64,000 nucleotides of DNA from Anaerolineae bacterium (GTDB lineage: Bacteria; Chloroflexota; Anaerolineae; Aggregatilineales; Phototrophicaceae): the NCBI GenBank assembly GCA_022843745.1, contig JALHNB010000012.1, forward strand, positions 1 through 64,000. The letters run 5' to 3'. This document shows positions 9,877 to 61,231 of the stretch, one piece after another. The number at the start of each line of letters is the position of its first letter. The stretch's first letter is position 1. Made by a program: the position numbers and the translations under genes. The notes below the pieces were generated by a model. The model worked only from the letters and a program-made list of their open reading frames with translations. It had not been told where the DNA came from and ran no database searches.

Positions 9877-9901
9877 GTAAACCCTAGAGGCTTGAACTTT
9901 T

Positions 9902-9999: not shown

Positions 10000-10145
10000 A
10001 AGTATGCGGTCAAATGAAGGTGCATAACATGTTCTAGCAATTCGCGATTCGATAGTTCTTTAGTCCACTCTCGCACTCCTTTACGCGCCAAACAGTGCCG
10101 ACACACATAAAATAGGGCATGTCGAATCGCGTAAAGGGGTGCATT

Positions 10146-11960
10146 TTGAAAAATCTCATCGCTGGTATTTTCGCTATTTTTGCCCTGTTCGCGCTGACTT
10201 TTTCGCCCGTTCACGCGGCGGGTGTGGTCAGCGCACCCTGCAACCAGGCAGCGCTTCAATCGGCGCTTTCCGGCGGCGGTGATGTGACCTTCAACTGCGG
10301 CACGGCGACGATTACGCTCACCTCCCCGCTGACCATTACGCAGACCACGACGATTGACGGTGGTGGGCAGATTACCCTCAGCGGCGGCGGCACAACCCGC
10401 ATGATTGAACACACCGCCGGGACGCTGACTCTCGAAAATATCACGCTCACCAATGGTCGGGCGCAGGGCGTGAACACCGATGCCAACGGCTCGGCTATCC
10501 GCAGTCGCTATCAAGGCACAGCGCCGACTCTGAATCTCAACAATGTCACGATCAGCAGCAACACGACGAATCTGACCTCATTTTCTGGCGGAGGCATCAG
10601 CGCCTACGATTTTGGCGGCGCGGTGTTTACGCAGGGCGGTTATCTCACCGTCACTGACAGTACCTTCAGCAGCAACACGTCAACCAACAGTGCGGGTGCG
10701 GCGATTCACGGCCTGCGCAGCGACATCATTATCTCGAATACCACATTTACCAATAATGTCTCCGATGGCGGTGGGCAAGGCGGCGCGATTTATGTAGATG
10801 GCGCACAGCCCAATAACGGTGTGGTTCGCATCACGGGTGGGTCATTCAGCGGAAATACGGCTTTTAACCAGGGCGGCGCACTCTATGTTCACCTGTATCA
10901 GAACAACGATGCGGTGACGATTGACGGCGTGAGCTTTTTCAATAATTCTGTCAATGGTGGCACAAACGGGTTGGGCGGTGCGTTCAGCGGTGGTAACGGG
11001 CGCGTGACGGTTCGCAACAGCCTGTTCTCCGGCAACGCTGTAGATCGCCCTGGCACAGCCGATGGCAGCGGCGGTGCGTTCGCCAGCGCGGAAACAGCGG
11101 TCATTACCATTGCCAATTCGACCTTTACGGGCAACCGCGCGGAAGGCATCTCGTTTAATGCCAACGGCGGCGCGATCTATATCGTCAATAACAGCCAGCA
11201 ATTTCAGATTATCAACAGCACGATTGCCGGAAATTTCGCGGGTTGGGTCGGCGGCGGGATCAGCAGTAGTGCCAATGGCAGGCTGATAAACACGATTGTC
11301 GCCAATAACACGGCGGATAACGGCCCGAATACCTGGGATATTCAGCAGCAGTGTTCGGCGCAGTTGGTCAACGGTGGTGGCAATATTCAGTACCCGCCGA
11401 AAAATCCGAACCCCAATTTTTTCAACGAAACGATCTGCGCGAGCAATATCACGATTGCCAATCCGTTGCTGAGTGCGCTCGGCAACAACGGCGGCGCGAC
11501 GCAGACGATGGCAATTCCCGCCAACAGTCCGGCTGTGGATGCCGGAAATCAATCGTACTGTACGGCCTCACCTGTGAGCGACCTCGACCAGCGCGGCTAT
11601 TTCCGCACCTTTGACGGCGATGGCGACGGCGCGTTCACCTGCGACATCGGGGCATTCGAATTTTCGTCGTTTAATATCACGTCCGCGCCAAACGTCCAGC
11701 CGCGCATCAACGCCTATACCACCGCCACGCCGACTCTGCGCTGGGAATCATTGGCCTGGGCGATGAACTATGAAATTCAGATCGACAACACGGCGGGTTT
11801 TAATGCGCCGCTGGCTTTCACAGGGATGACAGTGAGTACCCTGGTGAACGTCCCTACGCTGACCAACGGCGTTTATTATTGGCGTGTGCGCGGCCTGCCA
11901 ACCACTGGCGCACCCGGCGCATGGAGTGGGACGGAAACATTCGCCGTGAATGTGCCGTGA
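10146..11960 (+). CDS. Secreted parallel beta-helix protein (choice-of-anchor Q type)
   Basis: A secreted protein of about 604 aa. The proposed TTG start at 10146 follows AAAGGGGTG at good spacing and gives a clean signal peptide (MKNLIAGIFAIFALFALTF, cleavage after VHAA). An upstream ATG at 10119 would add nine residues and spoil the signal. Residues about 50-430 are repeated short beta strands with Asn ladders (NNVTISSNTT, NSTFTGNRA, NSTIAGNFAG), typical of right-handed parallel beta-helix surface proteins. A DxDQRGYxR segment and a C-terminal fibronectin-like domain (PTLRWESLAWAMNYEIQI) follow. It probably acts at the cell surface as an adhesin or polysaccharide-binding protein. No catalytic residues can be named. 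Confidence 0.8.
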   Translation: MKNLIAGIFAIFALFALTFSPVHAAGVVSAPCNQAALQSALSGGGDVTFNCGTATITLTSPLTITQTTTIDGGGQITLSGGGTTRMIEHTAGTLTLENITLTNGRAQGVNTDANGSAIRSRYQGTAPTLNLNNVTISSNTTNLTSFSGGGISAYDFGGAVFTQGGYLTVTDSTFSSNTSTNSAGAAIHGLRSDIIISNTTFTNNVSDGGGQGGAIYVDGAQPNNGVVRITGGSFSGNTAFNQGGALYVHLYQNNDAVTIDGVSFFNNSVNGGTNGLGGAFSGGNGRVTVRNSLFSGNAVDRPGTADGSGGAFASAETAVITIANSTFTGNRAEGISFNANGGAIYIVNNSQQFQIINSTIAGNFAGWVGGGISSSANGRLINTIVANNTADNGPNTWDIQQQCSAQLVNGGGNIQYPPKNPNPNFFNETICASNITIANPLLSALGNNGGATQTMAIPANSPAVDAGNQSYCTASPVSDLDQRGYFRTFDGDGDGAFTCDIGAFEFSSFNITSAPNVQPRINAYTTATPTLRWESLAWAMNYEIQIDNTAGFNAPLAFTGMTVSTLVNVPTLTNGVYYWRVRGLPTTGAPGAWSGTETFAVNVP

Positions 11961-41269: not shown

Positions 41270-42226
41270 TCAGGCATTGTTGAGCGCGGCGATTCGGGTT
41301 AGCGCTTCCTCAAGTGCTACCGGCTCGACGGCGAACGGCCCTGTCTCTAAGTCGATGCCCTGCTGCGCCTTGTCTAGAACTGTCACCATACGCGCGGCGA
41401 TTCGCGCTTGATCGGCTGGGCTATAGCGCTCAAAATTCAGTGGAAATTGCGAATAATCGACAAAATCGCCATAATACCCTTCCTCAAGTGTCTTACGGTA
41501 TGGCAAGCCGAAATCGAAATCCAGAGTATCGCCAGCATTGAGTGGAATCGTCGCTATTGGAAGTGGCTTATCGACATCAAATGGAATAACTTGAGTGGGG
41601 CCTTTCTCAAGAATTGGGCGTGGATCAATAATGATGATACGGTAAGGGTGAGCTTGCAGATGCCCTATGCTGTAATCAAAAATCGTACGAAATGTTGGGC
41701 TAGATTCGTGAAGATAATCGAGTTCAATAAATACCAATCCATTGATGAGCAAATCGAGTCGCTTACGTTGATAGGCTTGTGCATCGCCACTGTTTCCTTT
41801 GTTGCTTGGTGAAAGCAATTCGACCCAGGCCACAGGAGCATCTGTTTGCATGTCTTTCGATTCAAATGGGTAGACAGCTACGGCCCAAAAAGGCGTTTCA
41901 CTCAATTCATCTTCGTCAAGGAGTTCACCGAAAGGAATAGTTTGTGCCATTGCCATTGTCGTCGATGGTTGAAATTGGCGTTGCGGGTTTAAATCAGAAA
42001 TCAAAACATCTGACTTTGGGCTTCCACCTTTTTCACGTCGTATCTGGAGCGATTGCTCTAATTTTGTGATGTAACCCAGCGGACGCAACTGTGCCATGAG
42101 TGTATCTGCGAGATGGACAATGTGGCGCGTATGAAAACTACTCCATTCACCTTCAGCCTGCCAATAGCTATGCAGATGCGGATTGATACCCGGATATTGA
42201 TTTTTGACCGAGCGAACTGGCTTCAT
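41270..42226 (-). CDS. DUF4058 family protein
   Basis: A 318-aa protein with the DUF4058 pattern: NQYPGINPHLHSYWQAEGEWSSFHTRHIVHLADTLMAQL at the N-terminus, SLQIRR, a central VAWVELLSPSNKGN (conserved ELLSPSNK) and IELDYLHESSP. Start 42226 follows an AGGG; the longer start at 42280 would overlap galK. The family is common in Cyanobacteria and Chloroflexota and unexplained; the ELLSPxNK core resembles Uma2/PD-(D/E)XK nucleases. A second copy lies at 55598. Confidence 0.85.
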   Translation of the reverse strand: MKPVRSVKNQYPGINPHLHSYWQAEGEWSSFHTRHIVHLADTLMAQLRPLGYITKLEQSLQIRREKGGSPKSDVLISDLNPQRQFQPSTTMAMAQTIPFGELLDEDELSETPFWAVAVYPFESKDMQTDAPVAWVELLSPSNKGNSGDAQAYQRKRLDLLINGLVFIELDYLHESSPTFRTIFDYSIGHLQAHPYRIIIIDPRPILEKGPTQVIPFDVDKPLPIATIPLNAGDTLDFDFGLPYRKTLEEGYYGDFVDYSQFPLNFERYSPADQARIAARMVTVLDKAQQGIDLETGPFAVEPVALEEALTRIAALNNA

Positions 42227-42242
42227 AATGTTGCCCTCGAAT

Positions 42243-43379
42243 CTATAACACCTCTGCCCCGTTAGTCGCGCTGCACACATAAATATTCGGTGTCAGGTTC
42301 GCCGTCTTTTGATAGGTCGCGCTGACGGCATCAGCAAACGTTTCAGCGCTTTCTGAGTGAACGAGCGCCACCGCACAGCCGCCAAATCCCGCTCCGGTCA
42401 TCCGTGCGCCGTAGCAGCTTTCCTGTGCCTGAGCGCACCGTACCATGATATTCAGATTATCGCTGGACACCTCAAAATCGTCGCGCAGGCTGTCATGGCT
42501 GGCGTTCATCAATACGCCTAAACGGACAGCGTCGCCCCGGCGCATGGCTTCAGCCGCTTCTACCGTGCGGTCATTTTCCGAAATGACATGGCGGGCGCGG
42601 CGGCGAGTCATCTCGTCCAGCTCGGCGGCGCGGCTGTGAAATTCCTCCATCGTCACATCACGCAGCGCAGTTACGCCGAAAAATCGCGCAGCGGCTTCAC
42701 ATTGGCTGCGGCGTTCGTTATATGCCGAATCGACCAGCCCGCGCCGGGTGGCGGTATCCAGTACGACAATCGACGTATTGGGCGGTAGCGGCACAAGCTG
42801 CGTATCCAGCGAACGGCAGTCGATCAGCAGCGCGTGATTTTCGACTCCTGCGGCAGAAATCATCTGATCCATGATGCCGCAGTTCATGCCGACCCATTCG
42901 TTTTCCGCACGCTGTGCCAGCCGTGCCATCGTCGCTGCATTCCAGGGAAGATTCGACGTGACTCCGAATGCCCGTGCCGTCGCCAGTTCAACCGACGCCG
43001 ATGACGACAAACCCGCGCCAATCGGCACATCCCCAGCCAGCACACCGTCCCATCCTTGCAGCGTGTAGCCTGCCGCCTTCAGCACCCAGGTAACACCTTT
43101 GACGTATTCCGACCAGCCTGCCTGCTCATTTTCAAATTTTGATAACGGAAATTTGGCTGTTTCGTCAAAATCGAGCGAGTGTGCCACGACCTGACCGTCT
43201 TCGCGGGGACGCAGCGCGATATATGTCGCCCGGTTAATCGCCATCGGCAGGACAAAGCCGTCGTTGTAGTCGGTGTGTTCGCCGATCAGGTTGACTCGCC
43301 CCGGCGCACGGACAACCGCCGAGGGCGCTGAGCCAAAGCGTTTTTGAAATTCTTGCGTGACTTGCTGTTGTAGGGACAT
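42243..43379 (-). CDS. galK: Galactokinase
   Basis: Phosphorylates galactose to galactose-1-phosphate with ATP (Leloir pathway). The 378-aa protein is full length. Motifs: the galactokinase signature APGRVNLIGEHTDYNDGFVLPMAI (about residues 25-48), the GHMP ATP loop VPIGAGLSSSASVELATA and the C-terminal MTGAGFGGCAVALV. It is in a cluster with galT and melA, separated from galT by a Uma2 gene. Confidence 0.96.
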   Translation of the reverse strand: MSLQQQVTQEFQKRFGSAPSAVVRAPGRVNLIGEHTDYNDGFVLPMAINRATYIALRPREDGQVVAHSLDFDETAKFPLSKFENEQAGWSEYVKGVTWVLKAAGYTLQGWDGVLAGDVPIGAGLSSSASVELATARAFGVTSNLPWNAATMARLAQRAENEWVGMNCGIMDQMISAAGVENHALLIDCRSLDTQLVPLPPNTSIVVLDTATRRGLVDSAYNERRSQCEAAARFFGVTALRDVTMEEFHSRAAELDEMTRRRARHVISENDRTVEAAEAMRRGDAVRLGVLMNASHDSLRDDFEVSSDNLNIMVRCAQAQESCYGARMTGAGFGGCAVALVHSESAETFADAVSATYQKTANLTPNIYVCSATNGAEVL

Positions 43380-47384: not shown

Positions 47385-48683
47385 CTAGTTGTACTGCGGC
47401 AGCCAATCGCCGTGTGCTTCGATCAGGTCATCCACCAGCGACCAGATTTGATCGAGCGAAAGTTCGGCGGCGGTGTGTGGGTCGAGCATAGCGGCGTGAT
47501 AGATGTGTTCGCGCTTGCGGGTCAGCGCGGCCTCGACGATGAGCGATTGCACGTTGATATTGGTTTGCATCAGCGCGGCGAGCTGTGGCGGCAGTTTGCC
47601 GATTTTCGTCGGCTGTAAACCGTTTTTGTCTACCAGGCAAGGCACTTCTACGCAGCAGCCCTGGGGCAAGTTGTCGATCAGGCCGACATTGGGAACATTG
47701 CCATAAATGACGACTGGCTCGTCCGTCTCCATGCTGTTGATGATCTGTGAGCCGTATTCCATGCTGCGTTCGACCTCAAACGGCACCGTTGGGTTTTCAA
47801 GCTCGGCGCGGAGTTGGTGCCAGCCTGCAAGCTGATTTTCGCAGCGGGTGATGTATTCATCCAGCGGAATGTTAAATTCTTCGATCAGATCAGGGCGGTC
47901 ACGCTTGATGAAATAGGGTGTGTATTCGGCGAAATGTTCGCTCGACTCGGTTACGAAGTAGCCCAGACGCTTGAGCATCTCGTAGCGGACGCGATTCCAG
48001 TCCGGTACCCGGTCTTCTGCGATGACTTTGTGCATCAGTGGGTACAGATTTTCGCCATCGCGCTCGAATTTCAGATAGAACGCCATGTGGTTAATACCCG
48101 CACACAGGTAATTGATTTCGTCGGGGTCGATGCCCATGTCACGCGCCAGTTGGTGCGCTGTTCCCTGGACACTGTGGCAGAGGCCGACAGTCTTGATCGT
48201 GCTGGCACGGCTGATCGCCCAGCAAACCGATGCCATAGGATTGACGTAATTCAGCAGTGTCGCGTCTGGGCAAAGCTCCTCCATGTCCTTCGTGACATCC
48301 TGGAACACACGGATGGTACGCAGTCCGCGCATGATGCCGCCGATTCCGAGCGTGTCGGCGATGGTCTGGCGAAGGCCATATTTTTTGGGAATTTCGAAAT
48401 CGGTGACAGTACCGGGTTTGTAACCGCCAATCTGGAACATGGTAATGGCGTAATCCGCGCCGTCAAGCGATTTGCGGCGGTCTGTGGTGGCTTCAATCGT
48501 CGGTTTCACGCCCAACGTATCAGCGACACGATGCGCGACGACTTCAGATGTTTTCAGGCGTTCCGCGTCAATGTCGAAAAGGCTGATCGTCGAATTTGCC
48601 AGGTCGGGGTAGCTGAGAATATCTCCGAGCAGATTTTGAGCGAAGACCGTGCTTCCCGCGCCGATAAATGTGATCTTAGGCAT
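47385..48683 (-). CDS. melA: Alpha-galactosidase, glycoside hydrolase family 4
   Basis: NAD- and Mn-dependent alpha-galactosidase acting on melibiose-like galactosides. The 432-aa protein begins with the Rossmann motif MPKITFIGAGSTVFAQNLLGD. Family 4 markers are NYVNPMASVCWAI, GLCHSVQGTAHQLA (metal Cys and neighbouring His) and CAGINHMAFYLKF. The CHS motif favours alpha-galactosidase over 6-phospho-glucosidase members. It heads the colinear galactoside cluster and would feed galactose to galK and galT. Confidence 0.94.
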   Translation of the reverse strand: MPKITFIGAGSTVFAQNLLGDILSYPDLANSTISLFDIDAERLKTSEVVAHRVADTLGVKPTIEATTDRRKSLDGADYAITMFQIGGYKPGTVTDFEIPKKYGLRQTIADTLGIGGIMRGLRTIRVFQDVTKDMEELCPDATLLNYVNPMASVCWAISRASTIKTVGLCHSVQGTAHQLARDMGIDPDEINYLCAGINHMAFYLKFERDGENLYPLMHKVIAEDRVPDWNRVRYEMLKRLGYFVTESSEHFAEYTPYFIKRDRPDLIEEFNIPLDEYITRCENQLAGWHQLRAELENPTVPFEVERSMEYGSQIINSMETDEPVVIYGNVPNVGLIDNLPQGCCVEVPCLVDKNGLQPTKIGKLPPQLAALMQTNINVQSLIVEAALTRKREHIYHAAMLDPHTAAELSLDQIWSLVDDLIEAHGDWLPQYN

Positions 48684-48748
48684 TTCTGTACCTCATATGG
48701 ATGAATAAGTTTGATTGACCGTTTCGCATCGAAATGCGATTTCCGCCT

Positions 48749-48789
48749 ATTATATCGGTTCTGATCGCTTTTTGGAGCGCGCTCCAAAA
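48749..48789 (-). promoter_or_regulatory. melA promoter with LacI-type operator
   Basis: TTTTGGAGCGCGCTCCAAAA (48770-48789) is a perfect 20-bp palindrome of the sort bound by LacI/GalR-family repressors (central CG step). A perfect TATAAT (reverse of 48749-48754) lies 15 bp downstream of it on the minus strand, so the operator covers the -35 region. A second hairpin TCGCAT-CGAA-ATGCGA (48724-48739) is in the leader. This predicts sugar-responsive repression of the galactoside cluster. Confidence 0.65.
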
Positions 48790-48923
48790 CCAGCAAGTGA
48801 AGGGTATAAGGCTAACTTTTATCAATTTCTTAATTGGGTCAGTAATTGTTCTTAATACCTTTATGGTTATCATCGCGAAATCATAGAGTCCTCTGTACCT
48901 CTGTGTGTAGCTGGCTTACTACC

Positions 48924-48959
48924 GAAAGCGCCGCCCAAAATTTCCTCGGTGGCGCTTTC
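48924..48959. terminator. Hairpin after the PrimPol gene
   Basis: GAAAGCGCCGCC (48924-48935) pairs with GGTGGCGCTTTC (48948-48959) in a 12-bp stem with one G-T pair. It lies three bases from the stop codon of the PrimPol gene. No long T-run follows, so terminator activity is only likely. Confidence 0.5.
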
Positions 48960-48961
48960 AT

Positions 48962-51310
48962 TTAACGCAGGTGGCCGAATTTATGCTCACTGCGCAGCAC
49001 AGTAATCACAAACCCGGCTGGATTGGCGATGTTCGTGCGCTCAGATAGTTGCCCCAACATCCATTCCACCAACTTCACGCCGTATTTTTGCACGTGTTCA
49101 TAAGCTAATCCCCGTGCCAGCGCCCGATCAGGATTGATGGCGCGAACGGCCTCATACAGGCGATCCGCCAGCACCGTCTCACGCGGACTTAAATCTGGCA
49201 ATTGCTGCACGATGGGCTGGGCTTTAACTTTAAACGGCTTGCTGTGCTTGTCATGCCAGACTTTGCGCCACCATTTTTTGCACTGTTCCGGGTCTTTCCA
49301 GATGCTTTCGGGAATCAATTCCCAGATTGTGTGTTTACAGCGTTGGCATTCACCGGGCATATCAACCTGAATCTCCGTGCGGAGACAGCTTGGGCAGAGC
49401 CAGAACGTTTTACTCGGCACTGGAACTTCTGCATAGTGCTGATGGGATTCGAATATTTGTTCTGGTTGAGGTGCTTCGTTTACATTATTGTGAATTTCTT
49501 CACGAATAATTTGCGTCTTATGATGTTCATGATCTGGCTCTTTGTGCCAGCCGAACTCAAGCTGCTGTGGCCCATAGCGATAGAAATTCCAGTGCTGCCG
49601 CGTCAGATACAAGCTTCGAAATCTTCGTAATAAATTGAGAGCCAGACCTTGAATTGGCGGGAAACGCTTGCCGTCGCCGCGCTCGATAAATAGCCCCTTA
49701 GCCGCCTCCTTTTTGAATGGTAGCGAATGCGCTACGTCCCATGTCAGCGGTGTCTGGTGATATTTAAGCGTCACCTGAAGCCCGATCTGGCGGTCATAAC
49801 GGCGACATGTCCACACTGAAATTCCTAGACGTTGCGAGAGCCAGTGGCGTGAATATGTGGCAGGTCGTCGCTGAAATAACCCACGCTGTAACGCCTGACG
49901 ATAGGCTTTCGGGCTTTTCAGGTCTTCGGCGAGAATCGGGTCACCGTGCGTCAATTTGACATTGAGACTTCGGCACAGGGCGGCGTTATCGGGCATCAGA
50001 AACCAGCGGGATGGGCAACCAATACTTCGGTATAAATCATTTTTGATTCGTTTTGCACCCCTAACAAAAACGCATTTTTTTTGTTTGTGGTAATGACTAT
50101 GCGCAGCGTTAGCGGTTTTTGTCTTTGGGGGGTTTACGGGGGGTTCAGCCGTCTTCACCGCTTTGAAAATATGTTTTCCAGCGGGTGCAATGGTGCGAAT
50201 TGCATCCTGCACAGCCCGTCTGCCGATCCCATAAATTTTTAACAGCGAACAGGCCACGCGCTCGGTGAAAATCATGCCCGCCTTAATACCCGCCAGCAAA
50301 AGTCCATCCAAAACCCGCGCTGCTGCTGTGCATCCCATTTGCAGGAGTTTTTCGCGGATGCTGTTAGAAATCGCGTAATTGACAGCTTTGCGTAACGGTT
50401 GACGCGCCGGACGTTTGAATGCACTTTTAATGGTCTGAACAGCTTCGCGGCGGCGCATCTCTGGCGTTTCGCGGGTATGATCGCTGCGGGGCGGCTGAAT
50501 AATATGGATTTCGACCAGTTTTTTGACGACTTCGGTCTGTATCCAGCCGCTATCCCGTAAATAAATTGCGATTTTCAGGAGCGCGTTGTTACGGCCAATT
50601 TCCGCCGCCAGTGTACGATACCAATTCCTAATAGCCTCGTTTGAAAGCGACGGCAGCGCTTCACCCAGAATGCCCGTTAAACGTTTGCTGCTGTCGCCCA
50701 TGACCTCGACAGCGGCAACGTTACGCGGAAGATTTTGCGCAAATCCACGCATTTCGACGGCGCGATAGGTGTCCAAAAACGCCCGAATGCGGTTAAAACT
50801 GTGCTGCGAGAGCGTTACGAGATCAAAAGTCTGGGAAACTTCCCATCGTTTCCCGTCGATGATCGTCGGCGGCGCGACCACATAGGTCGATTGTGCCTGA
50901 AAATCCGCGCCATTGATGCGCTTGTTGAGCAGTTTCATGCCGGATGGAACGCGGTAATAATAATGGGGCAAACCACGCCCGCCGGATCGAATCGTGAATG
51001 TCTGCGCCAGATCGGGACAGCAGCGGGCAAACGCCTCTGCCATGTCCTGACGGTCAAAATCGAGTACCGCTAATTTCGAAATGGAGCCGCAAATAAGCGC
51101 TAATCCGCCGTAACGGTTATCACAGAACCACGAATCGATTTCCTCTCTGCTGGCACGCCGAAATTGATAATCTGACCAATTAATGGCTGCTACTTTAGCC
51201 TTCTCTGGTTGCGAATCACCCCAGATTGGAATGACCGACCAGCCCAGATTTCGGTACAAATGCGCCGATTCACGCAGCTCAGAGGCGTAAATTTCACGCG
51301 AATTTAACAC
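48962..51310 (-). CDS. PrimPol-type replication protein with C-terminal zinc finger
   Basis: A 782-aa protein. Residues about 8-165 are a bifunctional primase/polymerase (PrimPol) domain: catalytic D84-x-D86 (AVLDFDRQD), the SGGRGLPH116 loop and DFQAQSTYVVAPPT. A long central part without a recognised helicase Walker motif follows, then a four-Cys zinc finger (C639, C642, C655, C658: CPSC...CQRC), and a C-terminal NPAGFVITVLR helix like those of replication initiators. The start is GTG at 51310. Such proteins prime or start replication of plasmids and integrative elements. It is followed upstream by a non-coding region and parAB, which supports a replicon role. Confidence 0.8.
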   Translation of the reverse strand: MLNSREIYASELRESAHLYRNLGWSVIPIWGDSQPEKAKVAAINWSDYQFRRASREEIDSWFCDNRYGGLALICGSISKLAVLDFDRQDMAEAFARCCPDLAQTFTIRSGGRGLPHYYYRVPSGMKLLNKRINGADFQAQSTYVVAPPTIIDGKRWEVSQTFDLVTLSQHSFNRIRAFLDTYRAVEMRGFAQNLPRNVAAVEVMGDSSKRLTGILGEALPSLSNEAIRNWYRTLAAEIGRNNALLKIAIYLRDSGWIQTEVVKKLVEIHIIQPPRSDHTRETPEMRRREAVQTIKSAFKRPARQPLRKAVNYAISNSIREKLLQMGCTAAARVLDGLLLAGIKAGMIFTERVACSLLKIYGIGRRAVQDAIRTIAPAGKHIFKAVKTAEPPVNPPKTKTANAAHSHYHKQKKCVFVRGAKRIKNDLYRSIGCPSRWFLMPDNAALCRSLNVKLTHGDPILAEDLKSPKAYRQALQRGLFQRRPATYSRHWLSQRLGISVWTCRRYDRQIGLQVTLKYHQTPLTWDVAHSLPFKKEAAKGLFIERGDGKRFPPIQGLALNLLRRFRSLYLTRQHWNFYRYGPQQLEFGWHKEPDHEHHKTQIIREEIHNNVNEAPQPEQIFESHQHYAEVPVPSKTFWLCPSCLRTEIQVDMPGECQRCKHTIWELIPESIWKDPEQCKKWWRKVWHDKHSKPFKVKAQPIVQQLPDLSPRETVLADRLYEAVRAINPDRALARGLAYEHVQKYGVKLVEWMLGQLSERTNIANPAGFVITVLRSEHKFGHLR

Positions 51311-51549
51311 AAAACGCGCTCTTTCTAGAGGACGCCCATTGCTAAATTCGCGAATTACCGTTACACTAAATCATGGGATTGATGAGGTGTTTTGCAGATT
51401 TTTAGACGGTTGCCGTTGAAACAACCATCTGCGCTACTACGATCCACTGAACCACAAAAGTGCCTGGTAGTGAGTGAACCGCATGAATCTGGTAAAACTT
51501 TAGTCAGTGTTAGCGGTAAACTAAAATTCAGCTAGAATGCCTCTGATAG

Positions 51550-51591
51550 TTAAAAAGCCTGTTCCCTTTTTGGGAGTTGGGCTTTTTAATT
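51550..51591. terminator. Bidirectional hairpin terminator
   Basis: TTAAAAAGCC pairs with GGCTTTTTAA, enclosing an inner TCCC-TTTTT-GGGA stem. The arms end in A-rich and T-rich tracts on both sides, so transcripts from either strand could end here. Confidence 0.65.
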
Positions 51592-51816
51592 TTTAGGACA
51601 AAACGCAAACCGTAAACTATCTTTCATTAACCATTCGAATCATACACCACGCTCTCGATTCTCGCAAATGGCAGCTAACGCGCTCAGATTCCCTCTAGAT
51701 CGCGCGTAAAGGCCGATTTCCCGCGTTTAAGACCATAAAATGTTAAGTTGTAGCTGAAGCCGTTAAAAACGCGCTCAGGCTGTTTTTTCGTTCTCGAAAA
51801 CTTAGCGATTTCTCAA

Positions 51817-51845
51817 TTGCCATGCACACGAAAATCGACTACACT
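51817..51845 (+). promoter_or_regulatory. Promoter of the candidate small RNA
   Basis: TTGCCA (51817-51822) and TACACT (51840-51845) are separated by exactly 17 bp, a good sigma-70 match inside a region with no protein gene. Confidence 0.6.
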
Positions 51846-51851
51846 AGCTCC

Positions 51852-51958
51852 TAATTGTTTTCCAAAACTCGTCAGCATCTTCGCTGACGTTGGCGTGGTC
51901 AACCCCTCGTTGATCGCCGAGACCGTGTTCTAGCTGGCTTAGAATGCGGTCTTTTTTT
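51852..51958 (+). ncRNA. Candidate small structured RNA between PrimPol and parB
   Basis: A promoter-like sequence is followed by three hairpins in row: 51870-51889 (7-bp stem CGTCAGC/GCTGACG), 51892-51918 (GGCG...CGCC with an inner GTCAA/TTGAT) and 51921-51951 (12-bp stem with two G-T pairs), then TTTTTTT at 51952-51958, a textbook intrinsic terminator. The predicted RNA is about 107 nt. It is antisense to any PrimPol transcript that starts upstream of 51958, so it could be a counter-transcribed copy-number regulator. No known RNA family is recognised. Confidence 0.55.
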
Positions 51959-52128
51959 AAATTTCGTATCCCAAAATTACTCCGTGATATAAGTCCCTGA
52001 TAAGTGTTTAGCTCCCCTACCCTGCCCTTTCGGGTCGTTTATTGGATGAAAATCTGCGAAAAAAGCCGTTTTTTTGACCTTCCGACCTCGCCGGAACGCG
52101 GTGGGGGAGGGGCATATCGCAATCTGGG

Positions 52129-53316
52129 TTAACGTCCGTTGCGTTTTCGATCATCCTGTAGCGCCCGTTTTAGCTCGTCTAACCAGCGCTCATGTTCCCC
52201 AATCGTCTGCAACGCTTTCTGCCGATCCTGGTCGTTGAGGATGTCCAGTTTGGCGGCATACGACCAGATTTTGCCGATGCGCTTTTTGTTGATGGCCTCG
52301 ACAAACGGGTTCGAGGGGTCTGAGACCGTTACGGACGTAACGGTCTCATGCGGCGACACCGTTACGGACGTAACACTCGTTTTATCGAAATTGCGAATTT
52401 CCCACTCGGTCAGGTTATGGTCATCGGCGTAATGCCACGACTCGTCATCGAGTTTGAGAAGACCCCGATAATGACGAATCTGTCCTGCGCTCTTTAACCC
52501 GATAGCCGTCAGAATTTTTTCACTCTGACGTAACGGTATGCGAAACTTGTTTCCATCTGCGACCTGCGCGTAATAGGCACGTTCCGACTGCCCTTCGTCA
52601 ATAATTTCCGCGAAGGATCGAAATTCAACCCCTTCCTGCCGCAGCAAATCCATAATCAGGATCGCCAGTTGCCGTGCTTTACTGATCGCGTTCAGGTCGG
52701 CGCGGGCATTGTTCTCGCCAGCTTGCCGCCATACATCCATCTGATCGACGATACGCGCTGGGATTTTTGACCACTGCCCATCGGAGAAAAAATTATTGAG
52801 CAGGTGATAAGCGATCCAGCGACGTTCACCCGTTTCCAGTCGATATTTGCGCCCGGTATGCACGATGGTGATCGGGTTTGTCAGCCCGACCTGCCGGATA
52901 TTGGCAGCTAATCGCGCAACGCTCAACAACGCTTTTTCGAGTGGCCCCGCGTCATCCGGGATTTCTTTTGACTCGTCAAAATCCTCTGTCCCGATCTGAG
53001 TCAAATGGGCTTTGACATCAAAATAATCGTTTTTTTCGCGTTCAACGGCCTGTATCCACACATCAAAAAGCGACCCAAGCGCTTCGGGTTCGCCTGTCCA
53101 GAAATTGCGTATAACCGACGGGATAATTCTGCGAGGCTGCGTAAAATCCGGGTAAATATCAAAGATACTGATCGGCTTGGCAACCTGACGCTGCTCGGCG
53201 ATGTCCAATGTGCCAGAATTGAAAATCGCGTCGGTAGCGTCCTGCGAAGTGACCTGCGCAGAAGCATTAAATACGTTGATGTCGTGGTCGCGACCACGAC
53301 GGACGCTCTTAGACAT
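52129..53316 (-). CDS. parB: ParB-like partition protein
   Basis: A 395-aa CTPase/DNA-binding protein of the ParB/RepB/Spo0J type. The N-terminal nuclease-like domain has the LANIRQVGLTNPITIVHTGRKYRLETGERRWIAYHLL block (residues about 135-172), with GERRW as the CTP-binding motif. A central helix-turn-helix region follows (IPLRQSEKILTAIGLKSAGQIRHYRGLLKL). The C-terminal part carries a TSVTVS repeat created by two palindromes in the DNA. It begins inside the last codons of parA (8-bp overlap), so both are translated together. It is longer than chromosomal ParB (about 300 aa), as in element-borne forms. Confidence 0.85.
   Translation of the reverse strand: MSKSVRRGRDHDINVFNASAQVTSQDATDAIFNSGTLDIAEQRQVAKPISIFDIYPDFTQPRRIIPSVIRNFWTGEPEALGSLFDVWIQAVEREKNDYFDVKAHLTQIGTEDFDESKEIPDDAGPLEKALLSVARLAANIRQVGLTNPITIVHTGRKYRLETGERRWIAYHLLNNFFSDGQWSKIPARIVDQMDVWRQAGENNARADLNAISKARQLAILIMDLLRQEGVEFRSFAEIIDEGQSERAYYAQVADGNKFRIPLRQSEKILTAIGLKSAGQIRHYRGLLKLDDESWHYADDHNLTEWEIRNFDKTSVTSVTVSPHETVTSVTVSDPSNPFVEAINKKRIGKIWSYAAKLDILNDQDRQKALQTIGEHERWLDELKRALQDDRKRNGR
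52321..52374. repeat. Candidate parS sites inside parB
   Basis: Bases 52321-52348 form a palindrome with 13-bp perfect arms and a GA centre (TGAGACCGTTACG-GA-CGTAACGGTCTCA, written here in parts). The 14-bp core GTTACGGACGTAAC recurs exactly 33 bp further at 52361-52374. The two copies share 17 bp (52326-52342 region). This is the only long palindrome in the partition genes and is a candidate ParB-binding centromere. The 33-bp phase also explains the TSVTVS repeat in the protein. Confidence 0.55.
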
Positions 53317-54097
53317 GCGCCATTGCTCCCTCGATGCGCTCTATCAGCCCCATAGCCTCGGCTGCCGCTTTTGTTTCGGGCGCAATCGAAAAGACAGGTC
53401 GCCGCATGGTCGCTGCTTCTGCCCAGATGGTGCGCTGCATGATCGGAGGCCACACCAACGCGCCAAACTGCTTTTGCAATTCGCGCAGATTTTCCGAATG
53501 TTCGACAGTCTGGGTGCGGAACATCGTCGGAATAATACCCAGAACTTCGATATTGCCGAGATTCCATTTATCGCGGTAGCTCTGCGCGGCCTGCCGATGC
53601 GAGATGCTTTCGACCAGCCCATCAAACGATAAATATTCGCATTTTGTGGGGTAAATAATGGCATCTGTCGCCAGATAGATCGACCCATGCAGCAGCGATG
53701 GAGTAGGGGAAGTATCGAAAACGACATAATCAATCGCGTTGGATAATTCTTGCAGGCGATCATGGACAGCGAAGGCATCCGAGGTCGAATTGGCGATATT
53801 GCGGGTTTCGACGTTGGACGGAATGACGAATAGCTGTCCCACGACAGGCTTGCCAGGAATCTGATATTGATCGGGTGGGATAAAGCGCATGACCTCTTTG
53901 AAGGGCATATCTCGCACGAGCAGATTATACAGACCCGGCTCTTTTGCCAGCCCTGACATGACGGTTGCATGACCCTGCGGATCGGCATCCACCAGGACAA
54001 CGCGATAGTCTTTGACAGCAAGCCCGGCGGCGATATGCGTTGCCAGGGTTGTCTTCCCGACACCGCCTTTTTCATTGAGTAGCGTGATAACTTTCAT
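53309..54097 (-). CDS. parA: ParA-family ATPase
   Basis: A 262-aa deviant Walker ATPase for DNA segregation. Motifs: Walker A KGGVGKTT (residues 10-17), switch VLVDADPQGHATVMSG, Walker B-like IDYVVFDTSPTPSLL and ILGIIPTMF. There is no N-terminal helix-turn-helix extension, so it is the short type often accompanied by a separate regulator. The ATG has GAGGTCG upstream. It overlaps parB by 8 bp and is preceded by a winged-helix gene. Confidence 0.93.
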   Translation of the reverse strand: MKVITLLNEKGGVGKTTLATHIAAGLAVKDYRVVLVDADPQGHATVMSGLAKEPGLYNLLVRDMPFKEVMRFIPPDQYQIPGKPVVGQLFVIPSNVETRNIANSTSDAFAVHDRLQELSNAIDYVVFDTSPTPSLLHGSIYLATDAIIYPTKCEYLSFDGLVESISHRQAAQSYRDKWNLGNIEVLGIIPTMFRTQTVEHSENLRELQKQFGALVWPPIMQRTIWAEAATMRRPVFSIAPETKAAAEAMGLIERIEGAMAHV

Positions 54098-54188
54098 GAT
54101 CGACCTCGATTATAAATCAAGCTGTTAGACCGGGCTGTTTATTGTTAGATAATAATTTTGTATTATGAATTTTTACAGGTGGCTTCAA

Positions 54189-54437
54189 TTAAGCCCCATC
54201 TGCAAGTCGGTAGACAAATTCAAAGCCAATCGGTGTCCGGTTATCCCGAAACTCGATTTGAATCAGCCCTCTCGCCTGGAGGATTTCGAGCATGGCAATG
54301 TCATAGGCCGACAGTTTGCGCTTCTCAATCGCTTTGGCGAGTTCGCTTCGGTTGAACCAACGATCTGGTGATTCTTTCATAACGTCGAATAACCTGCTTG
54401 AACGTTTTTCCAGGCGCGATGTGGTTTTCTCGAACAT
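54189..54437 (-). CDS. Small winged-helix protein upstream of parA
   Basis: An 82-aa protein: MFEKTTSRLEKRSSRLFDVM, then a likely winged helix (RWFNRSELAKAIEKRKLSAYDIAMLEILQARGLIQIEFRDN, residues about 27-67) and a short tail. GGAG lies nine bases before the ATG. I know no named family. Its place at the head of the parAB operon suggests that it regulates that operon, which is inference, since ParA here lacks its own DNA-binding domain. Confidence 0.7.
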   Translation of the reverse strand: MFEKTTSRLEKRSSRLFDVMKESPDRWFNRSELAKAIEKRKLSAYDIAMLEILQARGLIQIEFRDNRTPIGFEFVYRLADGA

Positions 54438-54482
54438 TCAACAAAACTCCGCAAATACATATCGACCAAAATGCTTAATGTG

Positions 54483-54510
54483 ATTATAGCGCTTTATGAC
54501 TTTGGTGCAA
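54483..54510 (-). promoter_or_regulatory. Promoter of the wHTH-parA-parB operon
   Basis: A perfect TATAAT (reverse of 54483-54488) with TTGCAC at 16 bp spacing (reverse of 54505-54510) lies about 45 bp upstream of the winged-helix ATG. Confidence 0.55.
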
Positions 54511-54619
54511 GACAGCTAGCCAGAATACAAGTCATTTTACGACATAAGTAGACAGTGGCAACACCAATGAGTTCCCCGCGTGCGTCTGCTTAAATCTTTA
54601 TGTCGAAAATATGGAACTT

Positions 54620-54643
54620 GTAGGGGCGCATAGCTGTGCGCCC
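54620..54643. repeat. GTAGGGGC palindromic element
   Basis: GTAGGGGCGCATAGCTGTGCGCCC, a family member with core GCGCATAGCTGTGCGC, lies between the menA-like gene and the partition operon. Confidence 0.7.
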
Positions 54644-54656
54644 TTGAATTGATCGC

Positions 54657-55577
54657 CTACATTCCTAAATTTTGCGCGATGAGGTAAACCAGCCAGCCGA
54701 GGACGATCAACAGGCCGACGCGCCCATGTAATTTGGCGGTGCGCCCCTGCGCTTGATGGAGCAGGGCGGTATCGGTTTTGGTGTAGATGATCTGGATCAG
54801 GCGATAGGCTTCGGGGAGGGTAATCAGCGCGAGAAGGGTTGTCCAGGGGATCACATTTAATAAAACCATGATGATGAGGGCAACATAGGTTCCGCCCACC
54901 AGAAAAAGATATTCCGCACGAGCGCCACGCAAGCCAAGCATGAGCGCCAGTGTGCGCTTGTTGACGGCACGATCTGCGTCCATATCCCGGATATTGTTGG
55001 CATGGAGAATGGCCGCGACCATAAATGAAATTGGAATTGCCGCGATCACGGGGGTGATGTCGAACTGACGAGCCATCACGTAATATGCGCCCAACACCAT
55101 CAGCGGCCCCATAAAGATGCCGACGGCGACTTCGCCAAGCCCGTTATAGGCGAGAGGGAATGGCCCAGCGGTGTAGGTAATGACGACTAAAACGCCGCCT
55201 AAGCCAATCCACAACAGCATGGGGCCGCTGTGAATGAGCAGCAGTAACCCTATTAGTGATCCGGCAACAACAGAAACAATCGCGCCGATCAAAACATCAT
55301 TGGGCGTGAGGATTTGATTTTTGATCGTCATGCCTTGCCCGGCCTGTTTGAATTCGTCCGCACCGCGTTTGAAGTCAAAATATTCGTTGATGAAATTGGC
55401 AGCGATTTGCAAGAACAGCGCACCGATGAGTGACAGCACGAACGGGATGAGATCAAAAACGCCTTTTTGCAGCGCGATCACCGCCGCCAATCCGAGTGGA
55501 GCATAAGTTGCTGTCAGGGTGCGTGGACGTGCGGCGCTGTACCAGGCTGAAAATTTCTGATTTGTGAAAAAAGACAC
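54657..55577 (-). CDS. menA: UbiA-family prenyltransferase, MenA-like
   Basis: A 306-aa membrane protein with about eight or nine spans. It joins a polyprenyl chain to 1,4-dihydroxy-2-naphthoate in menaquinone synthesis. The first Asp-rich motif is NEYFDFKRGADE (about residues 63-74), and the second region is HANNIRDMDADRAVNKRTLAL. The N-terminus WYSAARPRTLTATYAPLGL is the MenA signature. No other men genes are near. The related UbiA paralogues (chlorophyll or heme O types) fit less well. Confidence 0.82.
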   Translation of the reverse strand: MSFFTNQKFSAWYSAARPRTLTATYAPLGLAAVIALQKGVFDLIPFVLSLIGALFLQIAANFINEYFDFKRGADEFKQAGQGMTIKNQILTPNDVLIGAIVSVVAGSLIGLLLLIHSGPMLLWIGLGGVLVVITYTAGPFPLAYNGLGEVAVGIFMGPLMVLGAYYVMARQFDITPVIAAIPISFMVAAILHANNIRDMDADRAVNKRTLALMLGLRGARAEYLFLVGGTYVALIIMVLLNVIPWTTLLALITLPEAYRLIQIIYTKTDTALLHQAQGRTAKLHGRVGLLIVLGWLVYLIAQNLGM

Positions 55578-55597: not shown

Positions 55598-56458
55598 TTA
55601 CCGAGCGCTGCTCATTTGTACCATAATTTGCCGGATAAAGGTCTGATCGGATGCGCTATAGGTGTGGAAACGTTCTGGTTCAGCCGCGTAGTCAAGCAAA
55701 TCGTTCCAGCGCCCAGCCTGAAATGTTTGTTGATAGACCGGATTCAGATCAAATTTGATTTTCTCGTCATTCGCCAGCGGGATCACAAATTTTTTGAGCG
55801 CTTCATCAACACGAAAACCATAGCCGCGTGCTTTTCCAAGATTCCAATCGGGGCGCGGGTCAGTAATCGTAATCCAATAGGGGTAAGCTTCGGGGTGAGT
55901 TGGGTAGGGGGGAACTTGAGCCACAATCGAGGGCGATTCGTGCAAATAATCAATTTCGATCAGCGGAATGAGATTTTCCAGGGCGTGAAAACGATTGACT
56001 AAATAAGCATCATAATTACTGCCGCCGGGTTTGTTGGATGGAGAGAGCAGTTCGATACGCACGACGATCTGACCGAGCTTGTGCTGCGCTAAAAGCTCAC
56101 GAACGACAACAGACTTAGGTTGTTTAATGGGTTCTACGACTTCGGCTACTGGTGCTTCCCATGTGGCGATTTCGACGACGTTCATACCCGCCAAAACTGA
56201 CTCGCCTCGTTGAAAAATGGCTATGTCAGGTTTGGGCGACGAAAGAGAGCGAATGCCACCAAAATCAAAATTCTCAATTTGGAGTGATTGTTCGCTAAAG
56301 GCAAGATAGTGACTGGGGAGATGGCTATTGAGATCATCCGCAATGTATGTGATATGTCGGCTGTGAAATGAAGGCCACATGGCAGGCTGGTCAATCGTGC
56401 CAGCGGTTTGCAGCAGGCTGTTGAGATGTGCGTTAATGCCGGGGTAGGGGTTAGGCAT
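55598..56458 (-). CDS. DUF4058 family protein (second copy)
   Basis: A 286-aa relative of the protein at 41270. It has NPYPGINAHLNSLLQTAGTIDQPAMWPSFHSRHITYIADDL at the N-terminus, SLQIENFDFGG, VRIELLSPSNKPGGSNYDAYLVNRF and LIEIDYLHESP. The shared ELLSPSNK and LHES blocks mark the family. It is immediately before menA (about 20 bp) but no link in function is evident. Confidence 0.85.
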   Translation of the reverse strand: MPNPYPGINAHLNSLLQTAGTIDQPAMWPSFHSRHITYIADDLNSHLPSHYLAFSEQSLQIENFDFGGIRSLSSPKPDIAIFQRGESVLAGMNVVEIATWEAPVAEVVEPIKQPKSVVVRELLAQHKLGQIVVRIELLSPSNKPGGSNYDAYLVNRFHALENLIPLIEIDYLHESPSIVAQVPPYPTHPEAYPYWITITDPRPDWNLGKARGYGFRVDEALKKFVIPLANDEKIKFDLNPVYQQTFQAGRWNDLLDYAAEPERFHTYSASDQTFIRQIMVQMSSAR

Positions 56459-59239: not shown

Positions 59240-59323
59240 TCCTCGCAACATAACCAAAATTTGAGGCTGATGGCTGACCGCTGCCAGCGAACAGTTTGCT
59301 TTATTTTCGAGGAGCAATTTTTC

Positions 59324-61231
59324 ATGAGTGACATGTCATTTAACCCCGCCACGACAGATTGGTACTACCCTACAGAGGACATCGTAAAAAATGCCCATGT
59401 GCCAGATTACGAGTCCGTCTACAAGGAGTCGATGTCCGATATTGAGGCGTTCTGGGCGAAACGCGCTTCAACGCTGGAATGGTTCAAGCCCTGGGACAAA
59501 GTTTTAGACAGCAGCAATGCGCCGTTTTACAAATGGTTCGTCGGCGGCAAAATCAATATTGCCCACAACGCGCTGGATCGCCACGTCAAGACCTGGCGCA
59601 AGAATAAAGTAGCGCTGATCTGGGAAGGGGAACCCGGCGATAAAAAAAGCTATTCCTACTGGCGCTTGTGGCAGGAAACCAATAAATTCGCGAACGTGCT
59701 GAAAAGTATGGGCGTGAAAAAAGGGGATCGCGTCACCATTTACATGGGGCGTATCCCGGAACTCATGATCGCGATGCTGGCCGTCGCTAAAATCGGCGCG
59801 ATTCACAGTGTCGTCTACGGCGGATTTTCTGAGCAGGCGCTGGCGGATCGCATCGAGGATGCCCAGAGCCGCGTGTTAATCACCTGCGACGGCGCGTGGC
59901 TGCGTGGAAATATTGTCGAACTAAAAAAGATGGCGGATCAGGCGGTTCATCGTTCGCCCGTCGTTGAAAGCGTAATCGTCGTCAAGCGCACCGGGCAGGA
60001 AGTACACATGGAGCAGGGGCGCGATTATTGGTATCACGACCTGATGGGCTTGCCGATTGCCAGCAATATTTGCGAAACCGAGCAGACCGATGCTGAAGAC
60101 CCACTGTTTATTCTCTACACCAGCGGCACAACTGGCAAGCCAAAAGGTATTCTGCACACGCACGGCGGCTATCAGGTTTACACTTCGACCACGCTGGAAT
60201 GGGTGTTTGACATCAAGGATGAGGATCGCTGGTGGTGCGCGGCTGACCCCGGCTGGATCACCGGACACAGCTATATCGTCTATTCGCCGCTGATTCTAGG
60301 CGCGACCAGCTTTATGTACGAGGGTGCGCCGACCTATCCCTATCCGAATCGCTGGTGGAAGATGGTCGAGGAATACGGAATCACGATTCTCTATACCGCG
60401 CCGACAGCTATTCGCGGCCTGATGCGTTTTGGTGATGCCTGGCCGAATCGCCATAATCTGAGCAGTTTGCGGCTGCTCGGTTCGGTAGGGGAGCCGATCA
60501 ACCCCGAAGCGTGGCGCTGGTATTACAATGTCATCGGCAAGGGAAAATCGCCAATTATGGATACGTGGTGGCAGACGGAAACGGGCGGATTCATGATTAC
60601 GCCGCTGCCATCGGTTGGCTTGAAACCCGGCAGCGCCACGCGACCATTCCCCGGAATCGAAGTCGATGTTGTGGACGATGAGGGCAATTCCTGCGGACCG
60701 GATGAAGACGGCAAATTGGTCATCAAGCAGCCCTGGCCGAGTATGCTGCGGACGATTTACGGCGACCCGGATCGTTTCGTCCAGCAGTATTGGAAAGCTT
60801 ACGAAAAACAGGGCTGGTATCTGGCGGGAGATTCTGCACGTAAGGACAAAGACGGCTACATCTGGGTGATCGGGCGCATTGATGATGTGATTAAGGTCAG
60901 CGGCTATCGGCTCGGCACAGCGGAGATTGAATCCGGCCTTGTGAGCCACAAAGCGGTTGCGGAAGCGGCGGTCATCGGTGTGCCGGACGATGTGCGCGGC
61001 AACGTGATTTACGCCTACTGCATCCTCCGCGCGGGCTTCCAGGGGAGCGACGAACTGGTCGATCAACTCAAGGATCATATCCGCCACGAGGTCGGGCCTA
61101 TCGCCGTACCGACCAAGATTGAGTTCACAAATTTGCTTCCGAAAACGAGAAGCGGGAAGATTATGCGAAGAGTATTAAAATCGAGAGCATTAGGGTTGCC
61201 AGAAGGTGATATAAGTACGTTGGAGGAATAG
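59324..61231 (+). CDS. acs: Acetyl-CoA synthetase (AMP-forming)
   Basis: Activates acetate to acetyl-CoA through acetyl-AMP. The ATG at 59324 follows GAGGAG, giving 635 aa; the longer frame from 59261 is discarded. Motifs: the P-loop YTSGTTGKPKG, WGT-like GWITGHSYIVYSPL, DTWWQTETGG, the hinge GYRLGTAEIES and the C-terminal TRSGKIMRRVLK with the Lys that is commonly acetylated. The N-terminal WYYPTEDIVKNAHVPDYESVY is a little unlike E. coli Acs but suits acetate or propionate ligases. It is the first gene after a good promoter. Confidence 0.94.
   Translation: MSDMSFNPATTDWYYPTEDIVKNAHVPDYESVYKESMSDIEAFWAKRASTLEWFKPWDKVLDSSNAPFYKWFVGGKINIAHNALDRHVKTWRKNKVALIWEGEPGDKKSYSYWRLWQETNKFANVLKSMGVKKGDRVTIYMGRIPELMIAMLAVAKIGAIHSVVYGGFSEQALADRIEDAQSRVLITCDGAWLRGNIVELKKMADQAVHRSPVVESVIVVKRTGQEVHMEQGRDYWYHDLMGLPIASNICETEQTDAEDPLFILYTSGTTGKPKGILHTHGGYQVYTSTTLEWVFDIKDEDRWWCAADPGWITGHSYIVYSPLILGATSFMYEGAPTYPYPNRWWKMVEEYGITILYTAPTAIRGLMRFGDAWPNRHNLSSLRLLGSVGEPINPEAWRWYYNVIGKGKSPIMDTWWQTETGGFMITPLPSVGLKPGSATRPFPGIEVDVVDDEGNSCGPDEDGKLVIKQPWPSMLRTIYGDPDRFVQQYWKAYEKQGWYLAGDSARKDKDGYIWVIGRIDDVIKVSGYRLGTAEIESGLVSHKAVAEAAVIGVPDDVRGNVIYAYCILRAGFQGSDELVDQLKDHIRHEVGPIAVPTKIEFTNLLPKTRSGKIMRRVLKSRALGLPEGDISTLEE

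Follow-up and report, generated by a model that had tools for sequence, protein, structure and literature searches.

A ParABS-type partition locus linked to a primase-polymerase gene at a conserved chromosomal position in Anaerolineae

Type Ia ParABS systems, represented by Spo0J/Soj, KorB/IncC and the Noc fold, combine a Walker ATPase (ParA), a CTPase-type ParB with a helix-turn-helix and a palindromic local site, with a single par operon. Many bacterial chromosomes have a single ParABS with canonical parS sites around the origin, and multipartite genomes (Vibrio chrII, Burkholderiales) contain replicon-specific parABS loci with different palindromes. The present analysis concerns a locus of this type in a 64,000-nucleotide stretch of an Anaerolineae bacterium (contig JALHNB010000012.1, positions 1 to 64,000), and "the window" denotes this whole stretch. 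The module is located between menA and melA and encodes a small winged-helix protein, ParA, ParB and a primase-polymerase (PrimPol). It is probably a ParABS partition locus that is coupled to PrimPol, fixed on the chromosome and passed on vertically. Its genes are intact, the module genes of its relatives are under purifying selection, the same site is occupied in four genera, and a near-private palindrome is present in or beside parB. ParABS is already known, and the multi-copy, PrimPol-linked form with a predicted centromere in coding sequence is a variant of it.

Unlike in the described type Ia systems, the predicted parS is non-canonical and lies within codons for the ParB linker or within the PrimPol gene, and several systems with different palindromes occur per draft genome, often coupled to PrimPol. 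A parS within a parB gene is reported elsewhere (PMC12207404). ORF904 of plasmid pRN1 also has a PrimPol domain followed by a helical domain, whereas the PrimPol of the module has no recognised helicase domain, is chromosomal and is linked to ParABS. Chromids and multipartite genomes (Vibrio chrII, Burkholderia) likewise contain several ParABS with their own centromeres per cell, but here no evidence for one module per replicon was found, and the module can lose PrimPol in place. The Streptomyces linear plasmid SCP1, reported to carry dual ParABS (PMC13245405), is similar in that a single DNA molecule holds more than one ParABS; SCP1 is a plasmid, whereas the module is chromosomal and conserved across genera. 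No Anaerolineae ParABS-PrimPol locus is described in the titles and abstract openings searched, which mostly do not cover subscription journals; both terms occur in PMC5512222, on polyvalent proteins, and in PMC6563490, on Thaumarchaeota elements. What stands out is a set of diverged ParABS loci, often tied to PrimPol, in a family mostly without the canonical core, with the window locus apparently fixed across four genera. This set provides a natural series for the divergence of ParB-parS specificity (CCGTTAC/CCGTAAC versus GTGTCGG palindromes) and an example in which the domestication of plasmid maintenance genes can be tested.

Genes of the module

The source genome (G000) is a 7.96-Mb draft, with the window on contig C12 (genus g1). 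It was compared with a family set of 98 genomes, 34 of them in genus g22 (G061-G094) and 64 outside it; among the named genomes, the best 80 of 94 ParB-profile loci were kept. Four ParAB pairs of this family are present in the source genome, on C12 (the window), C38, C52 and C15, together with four long PrimPol genes on C12, C38, C11 and C93 and one further weaker match. The components of the window module are the following.

48962..51310, reverse strand: PrimPol, 782 amino acids (Pfam Prim-Pol 70.2 bits; open reading frame list)
51311..52128, no strand: non-coding gap between parB and primpol, 818 bp (open reading frame list)
52129..53316, reverse strand: ParB, 395 amino acids, CTPase-type centromere-binding protein (TGERRW and EN..R..LNAI motifs; ParB_N 20.8 bits)
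53309..54097, reverse strand: ParA, 262 amino acids, Walker-type partition ATPase (AAA_31 102.5 bits; phrog_164, ParA-like partition protein)
54189..54437, reverse strand: small winged helix-turn-helix (wHTH) protein, 82 amino acids (homologues in C38 and 16 of 80 related loci)

An earlier note on this DNA had given the order wHTH, ParA, ParB, gap and PrimPol on one strand, with an overlap of parA and parB by 8 bp and a gap of 818 bp, and all of this is exact in the open reading frame list. PrimPol consists of a primase-polymerase domain (residues 19-158), a helical PriCT-like region and two winged-helix-like regions, followed by a zinc-ribbon-like CxxC..CxxC segment and a helical C-terminus. 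The zinc-ribbon-like cysteines, which the same note had recognised as a zinc finger, are shared by the PrimPol proteins of the window and C11 and absent from the C38 and C93 copies. All 25 PrimPol homologues match Pfam Prim-Pol, and six of them, the window protein not included, also match PriCT_1. The AlphaFold2 model of the window protein has a mean predicted local distance difference test (pLDDT) value of 81 and a predicted template modelling (pTM) score of 0.48, and both profile and fold identify ORF904 of pRN1 as the nearest solved relative. The DxD and H motifs are intact, with D84, D86 and H116, presumably the catalytic residues, invariant in all 25 aligned homologues. No helicase family was found in PrimPol (Pfam) or among the scanned neighbour proteins.

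Taken alone, the window ParB remains below the Pfam ParB_N cut-off (20.8 versus 26.3 bits), while ParB_N is matched by all 31 aligned members of the ParB family at E <= 0.01. Residues E161-T162-G163-E164-R165-R166, containing the GERR motif, are invariant in these 31 sequences. The ParB model (mean pLDDT 82) matches structures of Noc, KorB and Spo0J with E values down to 1.5e-5 and low whole-chain TM-scores. ParA is 77-79% identical to the same-locus orthologues in two other genera, and in every one of the 80 loci a ParA gene lies no more than 2.5 kb from ParB. The wHTH protein reaches the cut-off of no Pfam family; a two-row alignment with its homologue in the C38 module has 23 identical columns. 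It is a probable regulator of the par genes. With a ParA ATPase in an operon with ParB, a predicted CTPase fold in ParB and a palindrome nearby, the module appears to belong to type Ia ParABS.

The gap between parB and primpol (51311-52128) is itself unremarkable. Its size agrees with the earlier description of a gap with repeats, a promoter and terminators; three promoter-like sites compare with 1.0 +/- 1.0 in shuffled sequences and two terminator-like sites with 1.5 +/- 1.2, and the most notable repeat of the module is found inside parB (52321-52375). The gap was considered as an iteron origin and rejected, as it contains no outstanding repeat family and its promoter- and terminator-like sites are near shuffle level. 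No Rfam family reached its gathering score in 48600-54900.

Conserved position, selection and relatives

A tree of ParA and ParB was calculated with FastTree from 95 loci (9 identical copies of 104 dropped) and 619 columns; it was midpoint-rooted, and several deep nodes are weakly supported. The window locus forms one clade with L069, L070, L071, L072 and L073 (local support 1.0), located in G050, G038, G049, G048 and G047, respectively. These genomes belong to genera g14, g7 and g13, which together with g1 gives four genera. Flanking genes were compared by tblastn with the flanking proteins of the window, the informative ones being the following.

54657..55577, reverse strand: MenA (UbiA family), conserved flank outside the module (Pfam; tblastn)
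47385..48683, reverse strand: MelA-like family 4 glycosyl hydrolase, conserved flank outside the module (Pfam; tblastn)
42243..43379, reverse strand: galactokinase (GalK), farther flank, common to three of the other five loci
59261..61231, forward strand: acetyl-CoA synthetase (Acs), farther flank, common to all other five loci

Counting the window, MenA and Acs are present at all six clade loci, MelA at five and GalK at four; the L069 sequence breaks off within PrimPol, and the L070 stretch examined yielded no GalK. The module is positioned between MenA and MelA in all five loci where both are present in the sequence. ParA and ParB frames are open at all six loci. PrimPol is present in the window, L069 and L070. 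At L071-L073, ParA, ParB and a parS-like site are retained, and neither PrimPol nor wHTH was detected; in genus g13 (G047-G049), no PrimPol match exists anywhere in the genomes and each has one ParB match. Beyond this clade, MenA is located on the opposite side of the module in L077 and L083. Since MenA occurs at only 7 of 80 loci, other clades are located elsewhere; in genus g22, ParAB and PrimPol are arranged convergently, with a different set of neighbours that recurs from locus to locus. The ordinary metabolic flanks named in the earlier note, menA and melA, are confirmed and extended by galactokinase, GalT, acetyl-CoA synthetase and ThrS. DUF4058 proteins are encoded on both sides of the module, at 41270-42280 and 55598-56458 of the window.

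Signs of recent insertion were looked for at the module. Integrase or relaxase families were not found among 15 neighbouring window proteins (Pfam; three matchless, small neighbouring open reading frames unscanned), the window contains no tRNA, and the flanking repeats at the module boundary are weak and none is convincing, in keeping with the earlier observation that no integrase or attachment repeat is present. It is highly improbable that the module is a recently integrated plasmid, integrative mobilisable element or phage-plasmid still able to exit: its replicon-type gene set and the integrase- or terminase-bearing contigs of some ParAB relatives would fit such an origin, but the module occupies one site in four genera and lacks a plasmid ParB match, and there is no integrase among the 15 neighbours scanned, no tRNA in the window and no convincing flanking repeat. 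The earlier note had interpreted the locus as an integrated plasmid or chromosomal relic, to be abandoned if relatives had the same order in the same place and plasmid homologues were missing. This interpretation is not upheld, given the conserved menA-melA site in the clade, the lack of a plasmid or phage ParB match and the dN/dS of relatives well below 1. The same place is indeed occupied in all six clade members, but three of them are without PrimPol.

The ratio of non-synonymous to synonymous substitution rates (dN/dS) was determined by the pairwise Nei-Gojobori method for pairs of relatives, with window genes in no pair. ParA gave values of 0.014-0.12 (obtained for 3 of 5 pairs), ParB 0.055-0.22 (8 pairs; 0.18-0.22 in g13) and PrimPol 0.15-0.19 (obtained for 5 of 6 pairs), and the module genes of the relatives are thus under purifying selection. 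A decaying relic without function would account for the missing PrimPol and wHTH at the g13 locus and for broken copies elsewhere in the family, but it is highly unlikely in view of the open ParA and ParB frames at six clade loci, the dN/dS of g13 ParB and the conserved parS.

Searches of 72,556 plasmid records and a phage collection gave no match to ParB at E <= 1e-5. PrimPol matches were found in 5 plasmid and 18 phage records, covering only the N-terminal part, and ParA matches are generic (at least 5000 plasmid records). Near the ParA gene of a Leptolinea plasmid, no ParB or PrimPol of the module's family was found within the 12.7 kb examined. The Deinococcus peraridilitoris plasmid pDEIPE02 (L230) carries ParA, ParB and PrimPol genes within 7.3 kb, with only distant similarity in PrimPol.

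Seven IMG/VR contigs (L231-L237) encode the ParB family, and the closed genome G058 contains a prophage-type element (L185, G058:C1:3503000-3521000, at 3.51 Mb) with integrase, terminase and family ParAB. Terminase or integrase is found near L232, L233, L234, L237 and L185, with a weak case in L236 and with L231 and L235 outside the scan. These prophage and phage-plasmid systems of Anaerolineae share the ParA/ParB family with the module. They differ from it in the integrase or terminase nearby, in having no PrimPol of the module's family in the stretches examined and in falling outside the menA clade of the tree; one locus that does carry PrimPol, L135, clusters with L231 from IMG/VR. The claim of a replicon-type maintenance module is borne out by ParAB, the predicted centromere, the plasmid-type PrimPol (ORF904/pRN1) and the ParAB relatives on phage contigs. 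Most likely, the module descends from an old plasmid or phage-plasmid partition and replication module that was domesticated, a direction that we infer, and an ancient integration is possible.

Predicted centromere and proposed function

The predicted centromere CCGTTACggacGTAACGG occurs in two copies within parB, the second with one mismatch.

52321..52348, no strand: predicted parS site 1, 13-bp arms and 2-bp centre, TGAGACCGTTACGGACGTAACGGTCTCA (palindrome search)
52360..52375, no strand: predicted parS site 2, CGTTACGGACGTAACA, spaced 33 bp from site 1, in codons for ParB residues 314-319

The 16-bp core of site 1 (52327-52342) corresponds to ParB residues 325-330. Both sites fall in codons for residues 314-330 and mostly within a linker (316-339) that is disordered in the model. 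At up to one mismatch, CGTTACGNNCGTAACG is found only at 52321-52375 in the whole genome; 11 further sites with two mismatches are located elsewhere, and the confinement to parB holds only for exact or one-mismatch sites. In the orthologues L069 and L070, the palindrome CGTAACN4GTTACG is located at ParB residues of about 320 and 339, and in L071-L073 the palindrome is found just past the parB stop. Exact CCGTWACN4GTWACGG occurs at 35 sites in 25 of the 98 genomes, 32 of them within 2.6 kb of a family parB; those away from parB are in G016:C4, G052:C112 and one of two in G059:C35. Controls used the same pattern read backwards. Because the backward control of this pattern yields about as many sites, the argument for parS rests on site placement and not on number.

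Other branches of the family have other palindromes. The C38 palindrome AGTGTCGGN4CCGACACT gives 14 sites in 7 genomes at up to one mismatch (4 in the control), of which 10 lie within 2.2 kb of parB, one is inside a PrimPol match and 3 are elsewhere; four of the five sites in the source genome are at C38. In six g3 loci, GTCGGAN2TCCGAC is found 23 times, always within the PrimPol frame. G012:C1 (280 kb searched) contains five such sites, all in the PrimPol gene, at protein positions close to those of the sites in L076 and L085, with five apiece, and in L086, with four. The canonical parS core GTTNCACGTGNAAC has no occurrence in the source genome and is absent from 76 of the 98 family genomes, namely all 64 outside g22 and 12 of the 34 within it. 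The other 22 g22 genomes contain 25 sites (control 10), and 22 of these are in or within 1.5 kb of parB, as GTTACACGTGTAAC; one is 1.5 kb from a PrimPol match (G090) and two are elsewhere (G062). Judged by these motifs, the parS of the g22 module appears to resemble canonical parS, and that of the window clade appears to resemble the g22 form without the CACGTG centre. The C15 copy has two copies of CGTCCCAATTGGGACG in its own parB, unconfirmed in a relative.

From their position and conservation, the predicted parS sites are probably read by ParB. C12 and C38, the pairs with sites matched across species, seem to use different centromere sequences. In the proposed mechanism, ParB would load as a CTP-dependent clamp on the two predicted sites in its own gene and spread along the adjoining DNA. 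ParA-ATP on the nucleoid would then move or position the ParB-parS complex and thereby actively segregate or position the chromosomal region around menA and melA, while the wHTH protein would regulate the par operon. PrimPol would stay linked to the centromere and most likely serve DNA priming or replication restart nearby, in the way its ancestor served the origin of a plasmid. Several diverged ParABS copies would coexist without cross-reaction of the ParB-parS pairs, as suggested by the different conserved palindromes of C12 and C38.

A number of observations weigh against a fixed, PrimPol-coupled locus with these centromere sites. The genome is known only as a draft of 117 contigs. PrimPol coupling is not obligatory, because PrimPol is absent at the menA site in g13 and ParAB-only and PrimPol-only loci occur in one genome. 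The C38 copy shares no flanking gene family with its closest relatives L078 and L136 in the stretches examined and therefore cannot be called fixed. The wider family still moves, as its relatives on integrase- and terminase-bearing contigs attest. Many dS values exceed 1 and are near saturation, so that the dN/dS ratios, from pairs without window genes, are rough; the PrimPol gene in L111 and the ParA gene in L082 are both broken into two frames, and stop codons occur inside several family matches. With regard to parS, the genome search at up to two mismatches returned 13 sites, fewer than the 49 of the backward control, and the window search at up to three mismatches 6 matches against 4.84 expected. 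The backward control of CCGTWACN4GTWACGG gave 86 sites in G042 alone, besides 38 spread over 32 genomes. Furthermore, 26 of the 35 sites of this pattern are in g22, that is, in related species, and outside g22 six of nine are at parB. The C52 copy and its relative L104 have no shared palindrome with 6-bp arms.

Replication origin, DnaA and coexisting modules

None of the four ParAB pairs of the source genome is on the dnaA contig. Among 33 genomes with a dnaA match and a ParB match above 200 bits, the two are on separate contigs in 32 (drafts), and in the closed, single-contig genome G058 they are 2.1 Mb apart. GC skew was scanned in G000:C12, G012:C1 (280 of 353 kb), G049:C11, G073:C10, G061:C4 (120 of 482 kb) and G074:C32 (300 of 305 kb). 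A weak sign change at the module is seen in G000:C12 and G074. The skew shows no switch at the module in G049:C11, where 22 of 28 bins are negative along 272 kb, is irregular in G012 and G073, with no clear switch at the G073:C10 module, and is flat in G061. A replication origin at the module was considered on this basis; the evidence was rejected, as no consistent skew switch is found across the examined modules, which is no disproof.

These data bear on the possibility that the module is, or in single-copy genera serves as, the main chromosome-segregation parABS in a divergent form. The absence of GTTNCACGTGNAAC outside g22, its location at a family parB in 22 of 25 sites within g22 and the single ParB match in each g13 genome are in line with it. 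It is nevertheless unlikely: dnaA and ParB are on separate contigs or far apart, a skew switch is missing in G049:C11 and not clear in G073:C10, the sites form a local cluster only, and G000 has four ParAB pairs. The normal chromosomal parABS locus, mentioned in the earlier note as the alternative, agrees with the data only in part, given the four pairs, none on the dnaA contig, and the non-canonical parS.

A second alternative is that C12 is a secondary replicon (chromid) with the module as its replication and partition locus, each ParABS marking one replicon. Coexisting modules with different palindromes, as known for multipartite genomes, would be expected, and ThrS on C12 is compatible with a chromid. 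For another class of Chloroflexota, PMC13289182 reports chromid-like replicons. This alternative is quite unlikely, as the g13 locus persists without PrimPol, which is thus no essential initiator there, G049:C11 has no skew switch at the module, and two PrimPol-only loci (C11, C93) are found in the same genome; since the genomes are drafts, none of these points is decisive.

C12 and C38 are the only modules of the genome with both ParAB and PrimPol, and both carry a wHTH gene. The order at C38 is PrimPol-wHTH-ParA-ParB, compared with wHTH-ParA-ParB-PrimPol in the window. Across the family, the ParB profile at E <= 0.001 is matched in 79 of 98 genomes, including a distant second tier of about 120-140 bits. 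Nearly all ParB loci from the named genomes are assigned to Anaerolineae or Chloroflexi, and two are labelled Bacteroidetes and Saprospiraceae, possibly misbinned. In 48 of the 80 loci, PrimPol and ParB are no more than 3 kb apart, in three arrangements. PrimPol is present in 32 of the 34 g22 genomes, being absent from G075 and G080. Beyond the preferred reading of a fixed partition locus, a polycentric chromosome is conceivable, with several mutually insulated ParABS centromeres, some tied to PrimPol for local priming, and with DnaA-independent priming sites that could partly explain a loss of DnaA in g22. If this very doubtful proposal held, centromere and primer-maker would travel as one unit.

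Of the 34 g22 genomes, 28 (e.g., G061, G073, G079) seem to lack DnaA and have no Bac_DnaA_C match; outside g22, 60 of 64 genomes have one. With the full-length G074 DnaA as query, strong orthologues (above 700 bits) were found in six of the 34, and the rest gave fragments of 18-31 bits or nothing. The g22 genomes are drafts, most of them more than 90% complete. PrimPol as a substitute for DnaA was considered and rejected, as the co-occurrence is unsupportive: PrimPol is present in 26 of 28 DnaA-negative and all six DnaA-positive g22 genomes.

In the closed genome G058, ParB is matched six times and PrimPol not at all, and the one ParB copy examined is of the prophage type. Its skew, taken from 20 samples of 20 kb, changes sign at 0.56-0.84 Mb and 3.64-3.92 Mb, with one weak exception at 1.40 Mb. 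The dnaA gene is at about 1.1 kb of the record, far from the skew-based origin. Because the sign changes lie elsewhere, the skew origin of G058 is not at dnaA. The prophage-type element L185 is not far from the second switch.

Stand-alone PrimPol paralogues without adjacent ParAB are located at 5001-7364 of L027 (C11) and 8600-11116 of L028 (C93). Contig C46 encodes a ParB-like protein, with no ParA match on the same contig. On C31 (L013, G000:C31:22000-40000), a second kind of element at positions 8200-11716 encodes a ParA of 253 amino acids together with a TOTE-type AEP primase that contains a CHC2 zinc finger. Their neighbour is a Mg-chelatase frame of 226 amino acids, which we take to be ComM-like; it starts at profile position 90 and may be a disrupted gene.

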